The notes below the pieces were generated by a model. The model ran no database searches and was not told where the DNA came from. It was given only the letters and a program-made list of their open reading frames with translations. From Halostella limicola (GTDB taxonomy: Archaea; Halobacteriota; Halobacteria; Halobacteriales; Natronoarchaeaceae): a DNA stretch of 64,000 nt. The position numbers and the translations under genes are program-made. The stretch covers positions 808,786-872,785 of the forward strand of contig NZ_RCDI01000002.1 of NCBI RefSeq assembly GCF_003675875.1, in the 5' to 3' direction. Each line of letters starts with the position of its first letter. Positions within the stretch are counted from its first letter, which is position 1. Positions 36,183-55,149 of this stretch are shown piece after piece.

Positions 36183-36284
36183 GACCGCCGTCCGGGGCGC
36201 CGCGATGCGACCGCGGCGGTCCGACGAGACTGTCGTCCGCCCCTCGCCGGGGGACTGATTACGGACGCCCTCGTACACCGTGGC

Positions 36285-36788
36285 GTGACGACCGCACCAG
36301 ACGCCCGGAGCGACGTCCGGATCCGGGAGGCGGAGGCGGCAGACCTCCTCGCCGTCGTGCGGATCGAACGGGCGTCGTTCCCCCAGCCGTGGCCGTACGA
36401 CGCGTTCGAGCGCTACCTCGACGCCCCGGGCTTTCTCGTCGCCGTCGACGAGGACGAGAGGGACGACGAGGACGCGATCGACACGCAGAACGTCGTCGGC
36501 TACGTCGTCGCCGATTTCGTGCCCAACCACGGCCGCGGGCTGGGCCACGTGAAGGACCTCGCGGTACATCCCGACCGGCGCGGGGAGGGGCTCGGCGCGA
36601 CCCTGCTGGAGGCGGCACTGTCGAAGCTCGCCGCCCAGTCGGCCCGGACGGTCAAGCTGGAGGTGCGCGAGAGCAACGACCGCGCGCGCTCGCTGTACGA
36701 GGCGTTCGGCTTCGAACCGCTCCGGCGCGTGCCGCGGTACTACGACGACGGCGAGGACGCGCTCATCCTGGTGCGGGACCTGTCCTGA
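36285..36788 (+). CDS. rimI: N-terminal protein acetyltransferase, RimI-like GNAT
   Basis: A 167-residue GNAT enzyme, probably acetylating protein N-termini (RimI/Ard1 type). The acetyl-CoA loop is RRGEGLGATLLEAAL (about 103-117), preceded by HVKDLAVHPD, with ESNDRARSLYEAFGFE as the last core element. An insert EDERDDEDAIDTQ (about 56-68) is acidic and loop-like. GTG start at 36285. Its stop codon provides the first base of a long inverted repeat. Substrate is by family analogy. Confidence 0.86.
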   Translation: MTTAPDARSDVRIREAEAADLLAVVRIERASFPQPWPYDAFERYLDAPGFLVAVDEDERDDEDAIDTQNVVGYVVADFVPNHGRGLGHVKDLAVHPDRRGEGLGATLLEAALSKLAAQSARTVKLEVRESNDRARSLYEAFGFEPLRRVPRYYDDGEDALILVRDLS

Positions 36789-36867
36789 TACGAACTGTTG
36801 TAGTCCTTTACCGGTCATCGCCGGTGCGGGTCGGCGATGACCGGCAAATCGTTACAACAATTCGTAT
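36788..36867. repeat. 80-base imperfect inverted repeat
   Basis: Left arm 36788-36822 and right arm 36833-36867, 35 bases each, match at 29 positions when one is complemented; the loop is 10 bases (36823-36832). Innermost 12 bases (CCGGTCATCGCC) pair perfectly and the outer 7 (ATACGAA) also pair. It fills the whole space between rimI and the next gene's promoter. Possible uses are a transcription terminator for rimI, a folded RNA, or a small non-autonomous mobile repeat. Confidence 0.85.
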
Positions 36868-36903
36868 GAAACCGTTTTCACGCTGGAGGCGCTCCGTTCG
36901 CGC

Positions 36904-37344
36904 ATGGGATACGCCTGTCCGGTCTGTTCGACGCCCCAGGCCGACGCCGAGCACCTCGCGAACCACCTCGCCTTCACCGCCATGCTCGGGCGCGAGGACC
37001 ACGAGTCCTGGCTGGACGAGCACGCGCCCGGCTGGTCGGAGCAGGACCCCGACACGCTGGGGCCGCGCGTCGCGGAACACGCCGCGGAGACGGAGTACGA
37101 GGAAGTGTTCGAGGACACGACCCACGACCACGGCCGGGAGATGCCGTTCGAGCAGCAACTGGAGCAGCAGGTCGGCGGCGGTCGCGGCCGACGGGGCGCG
37201 GGGCGGGGGAACCTGACCGGCGACGCGGAGCAGGTCCTCGCCGAGGCCCGCGAGATGACCGAGCGGATGCTCGACGAGGAGGACGCCGACGGGGACGACG
37301 AGGGTTCCGACGCCGGCGAGTCCGACCCGGAAGAAAAAGCGTAA
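36904..37344 (+). CDS. DUF5810 protein with C2H2-like zinc site
   Basis: A 146-residue haloarchaeal protein. The N-terminus MGYACPVCSTPQADAEHLANH has Cys5, Cys8, His17 and His21, a C-x2-C-x8-H-x3-H zinc-finger-like spacing. The middle is helical, and the tail is acidic (DEEDADGDDEGSDAG). It precedes the DUF5809 gene by 25 bases and the two names are neighbours in haloarchaeal genomes I recall, so they may act together. Function unknown. Confidence 0.8.
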   Translation: MGYACPVCSTPQADAEHLANHLAFTAMLGREDHESWLDEHAPGWSEQDPDTLGPRVAEHAAETEYEEVFEDTTHDHGREMPFEQQLEQQVGGGRGRRGAGRGNLTGDAEQVLAEAREMTERMLDEEDADGDDEGSDAGESDPEEKA

Positions 37345-37369
37345 CTACCACCCCGAGAGAGTCGACCGT

Positions 37370-37783
37370 ATGCAATCAACCGGGTTCCTCTCGCCGGAGA
37401 GCGAGGACGAGGTCGCCGCGCTGTCGGACGTGCTCGGACCGACCGCGCAGGTGCTCGTCAAGGAGACAGCGAAGGCGATGGAGTTCGACAAGGAGGAGTA
37501 CGACGAGCGAGTGACCTCCGACGTCGTCCTCACCGCGCGCGACGCCCTGTTCGCGTCGCTACTGGAGGTTCAGGTGGGGACGCGCGAGGAGTTCGAGGAG
37601 TGGGCCGACGGGTTCGACGGCGAGGTCGTCGAGACGGGCAGCGAGAACGTCGACCACGTCGCCTGGCACGCCGCCGAGTTCGCGGACACGGCGGTCGCCG
37701 CGACGTTCCAGGACGAGGAGCAGGCCGCGGTCGCCACGCTCCGGCGACAGGCGTTCGGCCGGATCTATCAGGACCACCTGTAG
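37370..37783 (+). CDS. DUF5809 protein
   Basis: A 137-residue soluble, helical, acidic protein of a haloarchaeal family. Opening MQSTGFLSPESEDE, then LGPTAQVLVKETAKAM and the VENVDHVAWH-like segment NVDHVAWHAAEFADTAVAAT. No catalytic motif can be named. It follows DUF5810 closely and precedes the NUDIX gene by 35 bases, suggesting a transcription unit. Function unknown. Confidence 0.78.
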   Translation: MQSTGFLSPESEDEVAALSDVLGPTAQVLVKETAKAMEFDKEEYDERVTSDVVLTARDALFASLLEVQVGTREEFEEWADGFDGEVVETGSENVDHVAWHAAEFADTAVAATFQDEEQAAVATLRRQAFGRIYQDHL

Positions 37784-49330: not shown

Positions 49331-50410
49331 ATGGAACCAGAACTCTCCGACGTCATCGTCCGCGCCCGCGACTACCGGTCGCGCCACGGCGACGGCGCCG
49401 TTCGGCTGTACGCCCTCTGCTCGCTCGCGATACTGGCGACCTTCCTGCTGTTCTGGATCGGGTCTCGGTGGACGGTCCTCCCGCTGAGCGCCTTCGTCCT
49501 CCTCGCGGCCGTCGGGTGGGCGCGCCACCCGGCGGCGGCGGCGAAAGGCACGACGTTTCTCGCGACGGTCGCGACGGTCGCCGTGCTCGCGCTGATAGTC
49601 GTCTTCCTCCTGATCCGGTCGGTCGAGGCCGTCCGACACATGGGGCTCGGCCTCCTGGTGCGCACCGATCCCCCGCTGTGGACGTCCGGGGACGGCGGCG
49701 TGTACGCGCTGACGCCGATGATGGTCGGCACGGCGATCACGACGGTCATCGCGACGGCCGTCGCCGCGCCCGTCGGGATCGCCGGCGCGGTGTTCGTCAG
49801 CGAGATCGCGCCGGGGAGCGTGCGCGAGGTCGTCAAGCCCGGCATCGAACTGATGGCCGGCATCCCCTCTATCACGTACGGGTTCGTCGGGCTCACGATC
49901 GTCAACCAGTACCTCTATCACGAGCTCCGGACCCCGGCCATCGGGAACTACTTCTCGGCCGGTCTGATGATCGGGGTCATGGCGCTGCCGACGGTCGTCA
50001 CGGTGGCCGAAGACGCCCTGTCGACCGTCCCCGAGTCGATGAAAGACGGGTCGGCCGCGGTGGGGTCGACCCGCTGGCAGACCACGAAGAGCGTGACGCT
50101 GCCGGCCGCGCTGTCGGGCGTCTCCGCCGGCGTGTTGCTCGGCGTCGGCCGAGCGATGGGGGAGACGATGGCGGCGACGGTGATGCTGTCGCACACCAAG
50201 GGGTTCCCGAACCCCTTCTACGACGTGTTCGGCGGCTACGGCGAGACGCTGACCACGGTCATCGCGTTCGAGGGGGGCAACGCGAGCGGCCTCCACATGA
50301 GCGCCCTGTTCGCCGGCGGCGTCGTCCTGTTCGCGATGGTGATGCTGTTGAGCGTCGCCTCGCAGTGGATCGAGTGGCGAATGCACGAGAAGCTCGGGGG
50401 TGAGCGGTAA
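49331..50410 (+). CDS. pstC: Phosphate ABC transporter permease PstC
   Basis: Membrane channel subunit, 359 residues with about eight helices; the N-terminal ~90 residues hold three helices beyond the core. Core marks are GMALPTVVTVAEDALSTVP-like LPTVVTVAEDALS, SMKDGSAAVGSTRWQT as the ATPase-docking loop, and GRAMGETMAATVM. It pairs with PstA. Start ATG 49331, 30 bases after pstS; its stop shares one base with the pstA start. Confidence 0.92.
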   Translation: MEPELSDVIVRARDYRSRHGDGAVRLYALCSLAILATFLLFWIGSRWTVLPLSAFVLLAAVGWARHPAAAAKGTTFLATVATVAVLALIVVFLLIRSVEAVRHMGLGLLVRTDPPLWTSGDGGVYALTPMMVGTAITTVIATAVAAPVGIAGAVFVSEIAPGSVREVVKPGIELMAGIPSITYGFVGLTIVNQYLYHELRTPAIGNYFSAGLMIGVMALPTVVTVAEDALSTVPESMKDGSAAVGSTRWQTTKSVTLPAALSGVSAGVLLGVGRAMGETMAATVMLSHTKGFPNPFYDVFGGYGETLTTVIAFEGGNASGLHMSALFAGGVVLFAMVMLLSVASQWIEWRMHEKLGGER

Positions 50411-52925: not shown

Positions 52926-53993
52926 ATGGAGACCCGCAAGATCCAGACGGTCGGCGGCGGGACGTACACCGTCTCGCTCCCGAAGGAGTGGGCCGAGTCG
53001 AACGGCGTCGCCGGCGGGACGGAGGTGGACCTCCACGCGCACATCGACGGCCTGCTCGTGATCGAGCCGGGGTCCCGCGGGGACGGCACTCGACGGGCGA
53101 CGGTCCGGGTCGACCACGACGATCCGGACCGGCTCGAACGGACGCTGCGGGCGACGTACGGAGGCGGCTTCGAGGAGGTCGCGCTCCGCTCGCCGGACGG
53201 GTTCGCCCGCGAGCAGCGGCGGGCTGTCGACGACGTTGCGGGGTCGCTCGTCGGGCTGACGCTCGCCGACGAGTCCGCGGGGCGGCTGACGGTCCGGACG
53301 CTGCTCGACGCCGACGAGGTGTCGGTCGGCCAGTCGGTGCGACAGCTGCAGTTCGTCGCGCTGTCGATGCACCGAGGGGCCACCGCCGCCCTGACGAGCG
53401 ACGGGGTCGCGCCGCCGCCGGCCGACCGCGACGACGAGGCCGACCGGCTGTTCCGGCTCGTCGACCGCCACTTCGCGCGCGGCCTGTCGCGACTGGACGA
53501 GGTCGACGCGCTCGGACTGACCCGGCCGGAGCTGTTCGAGCTTCGGTCGACGGCGCGCGAGCTGGAGCGCGTCGCCGACCACGCCGAGCGCGTCGCGTCC
53601 GTCGCGGGCGCGGTCGACGAGGTGCCGGCGGACGCGGCGGACGACCTCGAGACCCTCGGCGAGCGGTCGCGGGAGGTCGTCGAGACCGCGGTGAGCGCCG
53701 TCCTCGGCGACGCCGGGCTCGACGCCGCGCACCGCGCTCTGGTCGACCGGGACGAGGTCCGCGAGCTGGCGTCGGCCCTCGACCGCCGCCTGTTCGAGGC
53801 GGCCGACGCCGACTACCGACTGACGCGCGCGGCCGACAGCCTCCTCCGGACCGCCGAGCACGGCGGCAACGTGGCCGAACTGGGCCTCCGGGCCGCGCTC
53901 CGCCGGGGCGAGCGGCCCGGTGCCGATCCCGACGAAGCGGCGGCGTGCGACGACCGCTCAGCGCCGCGCGCGCCGGCGGAAACCGACGAGTGA
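52926..53993 (+). CDS. phoU: Phosphate regulator PhoU with AbrB-like DNA-binding domain
   Basis: A 355-residue regulator joining two parts. Residues about 1-45 form a swapped-hairpin AbrB/SpoVT-like domain (METRKIQTVGGGTYTVSLPK, LVIEPGS), and about 80-355 are helical PhoU repeats with acidic metal-binding helices (for example LFRLVDRHFARGL and ELERVADHAERVA). In archaea this fusion is typical. It should sense the Pst complex and control phosphate genes. ATG 52926 was chosen over a GTG nine bases upstream because a GGTGA Shine-Dalgarno precedes it. A GC-rich hairpin follows the gene. Confidence 0.9.
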   Translation: METRKIQTVGGGTYTVSLPKEWAESNGVAGGTEVDLHAHIDGLLVIEPGSRGDGTRRATVRVDHDDPDRLERTLRATYGGGFEEVALRSPDGFAREQRRAVDDVAGSLVGLTLADESAGRLTVRTLLDADEVSVGQSVRQLQFVALSMHRGATAALTSDGVAPPPADRDDEADRLFRLVDRHFARGLSRLDEVDALGLTRPELFELRSTARELERVADHAERVASVAGAVDEVPADAADDLETLGERSREVVETAVSAVLGDAGLDAAHRALVDRDEVRELASALDRRLFEAADADYRLTRAADSLLRTAEHGGNVAELGLRAALRRGERPGADPDEAAACDDRSAPRAPAETDE

Positions 53994-54216: not shown

Positions 54217-55149
54217 ATGCAACTCCGTCGGCTGGGCATCAACGACTCCGTCAGCGCTGTGTTTCCGCCGGACCGCCTCGAATCGGCACTCGCCGACCTC
54301 CCCGTCGAGGTCGCCGTCGTCGGCGACGACCGCGGGGACCTCGCGGAGTGCGACGGCGTCGTCACGTTCGCGCACCGCGAGTCCTACCTCGACACGGTCG
54401 ACTGGGTCCACTCGATCCAGGCGGGGGTCGACCGCTTCCCCGTCGAGGAGTTCGAGGCCCGCGACATCGCGCTGACGAACAGCACGGGCATCCACGACGA
54501 CACCGTCGGCGAGTTCGTCGCCGGCTACATGCTCATGATCGCCCGCCGGCACCACGAGTACGCCCGCAAGCAGGCGCGCAAGGAGTGGGCGCACGCCGAG
54601 TGGGACGCCCCCTTCACCCTCGCCGGCGAGTCGCTCTGCGTCGTCGGTCTCGGGACGCTCGGCCGCGGCATCGCGGAGCGGGCGGACGCCCTCGGGATGG
54701 AGGTGACCGGCGTCAAGCGTACGCCGGAGGACGTGCCGGGCGTCTCGACGGTGTACCCGGGGGACGAACTCCGGGAGGCCGTCGCGGACGCGAAGTTCGT
54801 CGCGCTCGCGGTGCCGCTGACCGACGAGACCGAGGGGCTGATCGGGAAGGACGAGTTCGACGCCCTGCGAGACGACGCCTACCTGATCAACGTCGCCCGC
54901 GGCCCCGTCGTGCGGCAGCAGGAACTCGTCCGGGCGCTCGAACGCGGCGACCTCGCGGGCGCCGCGCTCGACGTGTTCGAGGAGGAGCCGCTCCCCGATC
55001 GCTCGCCGCTGTGGGAGATGGACGAAGTGATCGTCACGCCCCACGCCGCCGCGCAGACGCGAGACTACTACCGGGACATCGCCGACCTCGTCCGGGAGAA
55101 CGTCGACCGCATACAGTCGGACGAGGAGCTGTACAATCGGGTCGTGTAG
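54217..55149 (+). CDS. D-2-hydroxyacid dehydrogenase
   Basis: NAD(P)-dependent enzyme of 310 residues reducing a 2-keto acid or the reverse. The Rossmann motif is VVGLGTLGRGIA (142-153), the catalytic Arg228 lies in NVARGPVV, a Glu in the FEEEPLP region (255-257), and the catalytic His276 in VTPHAAAQ. The N-terminal domain is shorter than in phosphoglycerate dehydrogenase and lacks an ACT domain, so serine synthesis is unlikely. Substrate unknown. Convergent with the nucleoside hydrolase gene, four bases apart. Confidence 0.9.
   Translation: MQLRRLGINDSVSAVFPPDRLESALADLPVEVAVVGDDRGDLAECDGVVTFAHRESYLDTVDWVHSIQAGVDRFPVEEFEARDIALTNSTGIHDDTVGEFVAGYMLMIARRHHEYARKQARKEWAHAEWDAPFTLAGESLCVVGLGTLGRGIAERADALGMEVTGVKRTPEDVPGVSTVYPGDELREAVADAKFVALAVPLTDETEGLIGKDEFDALRDDAYLINVARGPVVRQQELVRALERGDLAGAALDVFEEEPLPDRSPLWEMDEVIVTPHAAAQTRDYYRDIADLVRENVDRIQSDEELYNRVV

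Follow-up and report, generated by a model that had tools for sequence, protein, structure and literature searches.

A palindromic repeat at the rimI stop codon of Halostella limicola is very probably a copy of a small non-autonomous mobile element of haloarchaea

The palindrome that follows rimI in Halostella limicola is very probably one copy of a small mobile repeat of haloarchaea: a MITE-like transposable element that is non-autonomous. Comparison of its many dispersed copies shows a unit of about 78-80 bp with inverted ends (TACGG or TAGGG ... TTGTA) that inserts exactly at TGA, in either orientation, with duplication of these 3 bp. Present in roughly one in two of the haloarchaeal genomes sampled, and with at least 30 matches in many of them, such an element would rank among the repeats that are widespread in the class, and it decorates gene ends. 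It is a clean natural case of a mobile element that spreads without breaking genes, by duplicating the stop codon. Whether a hairpin at the stop codon alters the 3' end of an archaeal mRNA could be tested directly on its copies, and the enzyme responsible for its movement becomes a question in its own right.

Geometry of the palindrome and definition of the unit

We analysed a 64,000-nt stretch of the H. limicola genome, referred to here as the window. A preliminary description had placed an 80-base inverted repeat at 36788-36867, and our analysis recovered it in each particular: arms at 36788-36822 and 36833-36867 with 29 of 35 bases complementary, a 10-base loop, perfect pairing of the core 12 and the outer 7 bases, a start on the final A of the rimI stop codon, TGA (36786-36788), and 36 bases between its end and the ATG at 36904. 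Symmetry of this size was also said to be unlikely by chance. When the window was scanned for 36-nt arms separated by a loop of 8 or 9, the palindrome had the top score (30/36 vs 26 for the next). The 64 kb were also shuffled locally 100 times; the best score per shuffle averaged 23.5 and reached 27 at most, below that of the palindrome. A repeat finder delimited arms of 36 nt (83%) around an 8-nt loop, and the RNA fold of 36780-36905 had an energy of -52.1 kcal/mol (z -3.9), which none of 200 shuffles equalled. Weaker inverted repeats (22/30 arm bases) are present in the window at 54286-54351, 53676-53747 and 49726-49789.

The unit that emerged from the comparison of copies differs slightly from the one first described, being a 78-bp element at 36789-36866 flanked by direct copies of TGA at 36786-36788 and 36867-36869. 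We infer duplication of TGA at this site from the duplication seen in sequence comparisons at other sites of the family. The features are as follows.

36285-36788, + strand: rimI, whose TGA stop is the putative insertion target (open reading frame; TIGR01575, 88.4 bits vs a cut-off of 86.4)
36786-36788, + strand: left TGA, the rimI stop codon and putative left copy of the target duplication (from the sequence)
36789-36866, no strand: element, 78 bp, with terminal inverted repeats TACGAACTGTTGTA and TACAACAATTCGTA
36803-36806, no strand: left-arm bases that stay unpaired, within an asymmetric internal loop common to family members
36823-36832, no strand: central loop, present in the second genomic copy as the reverse complement with one change
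36867-36869, + strand: right TGA, putative right copy of the target duplication (from the sequence and the family)
36904-37344, + strand: DUF5810 protein gene, the next after the element (PF19126, 120.6 bits)

Copies in the genome, the genus and the class

The preliminary description had offered a dispersed repeat or small mobile element as one reading and had suggested a search for more copies in this and other haloarchaeal genomes. That search yielded many, so that the palindrome is not unique, and the reading is borne out by 15 sites in its own genome, by copies across the class and by unoccupied sites in relatives that point to a 3-bp duplication. The 15 distinct sites correspond to 27 matches on both strands (E<=0.01). 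The second copy in the genome is identical to the window copy at 76 of 84 bases (BLAST); its loop is the inverse of the window loop, and one arm pair that is A-T in the window is G-C there.

A search of the genus with the terminal 15-mer found many copies, most of them in one congener (G004; 52 matches vs 1 for the reversed control). From the 43 pairs found, one non-member (L141) was dropped before the columns were counted, and 37 copies were used in an alignment (A2) from which a covariance model (R1) was built. The window copy was among those used to build the model, and its match of 83.5 bits (E 1.6e-17) is accordingly not independent. R1 matched all five genomes of the genus and, with the genomes that fed the model included, 71 of 145 sampled genomes of the class, in 32 of 58 genera; many class genomes contain at least 30 matches each. 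In a phylum-wide sample, 5 of 148 genomes matched, all in the same order. A copy from a Halomicrobium genome (G145) matched a Halomicrobium mukohataei plasmid at 98.8%. One query copy had no match in a phage collection, and a pattern scan of viral contigs returned 104 candidate stretches.

The copies follow the pattern TGA-TA[C/G]GG....[T/C]TGTA...TACA[A/G]....CC[C/G]TA-TGA. Among 42 copies, the base immediately to the left of the left ATA was always G, with T before it in 40; past the right end came G (38 copies) or A (4), and then A in 37. Pair orientation was chosen by TG or GA, and the counts in this set therefore lean towards TGA.

Unoccupied sites and duplication of TGA

The joined flanks of eight copies from the Halomicrobium genome G145 were searched in relatives, among them a genome of the same genus (G093). 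In six of eight aligned site comparisons the site was cleanly unoccupied and had a single TGA; these six represent four insertions (L240, L242, L243 and L248, of which L243 was scored as inside a gene); the other two (L247, and L240 against G077) were unoccupied but altered at the site. Hit spacing in G093 indicated that three of the eight sites were occupied (L241, L245, L247) and four unoccupied, L252 being undecided among the matches listed. The clean unoccupied sites have one TGA and occupied sites two, so each insertion adds about 79 bp plus a TGA. In addition, an identical 79-bp inner sequence was found at six places, three in each orientation (L245-247 vs L252-254), always between TGA and TGA, which points to TGA being a duplicated target, not part of the element.

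Excess of copies on stop codons

The set assembled for this count comprised 114 unique copies, each bounded by TGA on either end and with 400 bp of flank to both sides; an altered TGA or insufficient flank excluded a copy. By a composition rule, the left TGA was an in-frame stop in 67 of the 114 copies, vs 205 of 5,326 TGAs of the same loci; because only copies with both TGAs intact were kept, old copies in the set are biased towards stop sites. The gene caller, itself a crude composition rule applied to copies that are not independent, assigned 62 copies to stops, 38 to intergenic and 14 to intragenic positions, and the background TGA/TCA triplets to 91 stop, 754 intergenic or edge and 2,852 intragenic positions. 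There were thus 62 elements for 91 sites on stop TGAs, and 9 for the 167 TGA/TCA triplets that follow a stop at 60 bp or less. By genome, the stop, intergenic and intragenic counts were 11, 11 and 3 in G145, which has young copies and equal numbers at stop and intergenic sites, 4, 5 and 4 in G102, 8, 4 and 1 in G004, and 39, 18 and 6 in the others. Public annotation placed the end of a coding sequence inside the end of the element in all three plasmid places viewed.

C before and G after the TGA were seen at intergenic, intragenic and stop sites alike, and the target preference is approximately GAC-TGA-G. A motif trained on 52 non-stop copies predicted a stop share of 0.30 among non-genic sites, vs 0.62 seen. 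These data indicate that target preference accounts for part of the excess, and that harmless landing alone is insufficient as its cause. Active targeting of stop codons beyond sequence preference and purging, by a recombinase or transposase of an undescribed kind that gives genes hairpin 3' ends, seems to us rather unlikely.

Origin of the palindrome and alternative explanations

The non-autonomous element that we favour would be moved by a transposase acting in trans, which would excise the double-stranded element and join it to a 3-bp staggered cut in a roughly palindromic target, probably close to (G)AC-TGA-G(W)S. Haloarchaeal genes appear often to end in GAC TGA, so that gene ends would match this target; an insertion at a stop regenerates the stop codon and is thus tolerated, and insertions inside genes would mostly be lost. 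The arms would be kept alike, and the loops flipped, probably by recombination or conversion between the arms.

Alternatively, the palindrome could serve gene ends as an RNA or DNA structure, for instance by terminating transcription or stabilising the 3' end, in which case selection would retain it at stop codons and its repeat nature would be secondary. The strong hairpin would suit such a role, as would the stop share above the motif expectation and the sparse use of TGA/TCA shortly after stops in comparison with the stop TGAs themselves. Arm matching also seems to speak for it: among 53 non-redundant copies (<85% identity), arms agreed more within elements than between them (0.714 vs 0.566), except at arm positions 15-22 (0.39 vs 0.45), which correspond to an asymmetric bulge common to the family. 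In G145, however, arm and loop orientation are combined in all four possible ways (7, 5, 4 and 4 of 20 copies), and exchange between the arms can explain both the likeness of the arms and the flipped loops without any RNA function. We therefore discounted arm covariation as a sign of RNA function, since the opposite orientations and flipped loops offer recombination as a non-selective source. Sites that differ between close relatives, the 14 copies inside genes, the lack of a T-run and the variety of arrangements of the gene that follows a stop-site copy (tandem in 35 of 62, convergent in 25, not called in 2) also argue against this explanation, which we consider improbable.

REP/REPIN repeats are high-copy, mostly extragenic palindromes with tag tetranucleotides and a linked Y1 (RAYT) transposase. 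The family is similarly hairpin-forming, mostly extragenic and abundant, the TGA at both ends could be the cleavage motif of an IS200-type Y1 transposase that moves a single strand, and the unoccupied sites fit this as well as they fit duplication. Yet one inner sequence stands in both orientations relative to TGA, which is not readily expected of a strand-specific mechanism, target preference is seen on both sides of the site, and the 3-bp duplication together with both orientations sets the family apart from REP/REPIN repeats; we regard such an origin as very improbable. A chance palindrome unique to the rimI gap has practically no probability, being refuted by the second copy, the family and the shuffles.

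The rimI-DUF5810 locus in relatives

Family models upheld the gene labels rimI, DUF5810 and DUF5809. Control of DUF5810/5809 expression, the other role proposed in the preliminary description, found no support: the palindrome is present behind rimI in none of the four congeneric genomes and is thus not conserved as a control element for these genes. There was no T-run terminator pattern at the palindrome and no Rfam match in 36200-37400 at E<=1. An effect on the 3' end of the rimI mRNA is possible, but would be secondary.

In the closest relative (G002), whose RimI is 95% identical, the rimI orthologue has the identical ending and TGA stop without the palindrome; the orthologues of G001, G003 and G004 terminate in TAG. 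The 5' leader of DUF5810 is common to the window, G002 and G004, the latter two without the element. Other DNA, about 370-390 bp long, separates rimI from DUF5810 in G002 and G004 (L101, L102) and is missing from window positions 36789-36903, and in G001 and G003 another gene follows rimI. Deletion or rearrangement has therefore also occurred there, and either the window site lost DNA or G002 and G004 gained it; a clean unoccupied counterpart with both flanks of the rimI site was not found in the four congeneric genomes. From the sequences of the palindrome family and the stop codon of G002, we infer insertion into the rimI stop. The copy would have entered it once the lineage had separated from that of the nearest relative examined; alternatively, that relative would have lost it.

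Search for a mobilising element

An end-pair scan of 308 loci revealed no autonomous element with the ends of the palindrome, and an end-pattern search of G102 revealed no autonomous partner, the unpaired ends viewed being truncated or nested copies. Two candidate partners (L463 and L450) were rejected, as they are other insertion sequences inside a palindrome copy. DDE_Tnp_1 matched 94 places in seven genomes; boundaries were tested on 50 loci and 9 more copies, none of which fits. PF13586 gave no match above cut-off in six genomes. The H. limicola genome itself (G000, 4.1 Mb) had no DDE_Tnp_1 match at E<=0.001, and the other six genomes searched had 6 to 37 each. This result and the divergence of the copies in the H. 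limicola genome suggest that the family may be dormant there.

Relation to known repeats

In the literature searched, which excluded ISfinder and most subscription journals, no earlier description of the family was found, which is not proof that none exists. We would class it as a new MITE-like family that comes close to the small mobile repeats (SMRs) of Haloquadratum but duplicates its target. According to PMC3119063, SMR-A and SMR-B of Haloquadratum walsbyi are mobile, 80-110 bp long with prominent inverted ends, and too short for a transposase gene; no transposon with related ends is known, they cause no target duplication, and they land in other mobile elements. Our family is alike in size, inverted ends, non-coding shortness and mobility, and in that no transposon with related ends is known. 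It differs in duplicating TGA and in lying mostly on stop codons, a distinction based on the descriptions of SMRs, not on their sequences.

MITEs of prokaryotes, haloarchaea included, are described in PMC10969869 and PMC3119063 as short, non-coding and multicopy, with inverted ends and target duplication. As in that description, the family has a short non-coding unit with terminal inverted repeats, a target-site duplication (one TGA in six of the eight aligned unoccupied sites, two in occupied ones) and many dispersed copies, some nearly identical. It thus behaves like a MITE, although most of its unit is palindrome and TGA is duplicated at nearly all sites; a parent transposon with the same ends, one of the defining traits of MITEs, was not found in the loci and genomes searched. 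The PATEs of Haloquadratum (PMC3119063) lack terminal inverted repeats and duplication and have ends in common with IS605-type elements. They resemble our family in being palindromic and of high copy number in a haloarchaeon, whereas our family has inverted ends in the 37 aligned copies, as well as the duplication. By the definitions of these repeats, the family is neither SMR nor PATE.

Nested and clustered copies

A second subfamily in G102, about 79 bp long with ends TACTGTCGGCTGTAAC, has TGA or TCA flanks (L420:1501-1581, L421, L422). In the same genome, second-subfamily copies with ends TACTG..GGCTGTAA are nested in first-subfamily copies between two TAA triplets (L413-L415), and adjoining copies share one TGA or TCA (L427, L415). 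Other insertion sequences lie inside palindrome copies at L463:1545-3653, L450:1008-2498, L168 and L169; the landing of mobile elements in other elements is likewise reported for Haloquadratum (PMC3119063). In Halobacteriales archaeon QS_5_68_33 (L057), copies at 370-449, 672-751 and 1944-2023 lie within 1.7 kb around a DUF5810 homologue.
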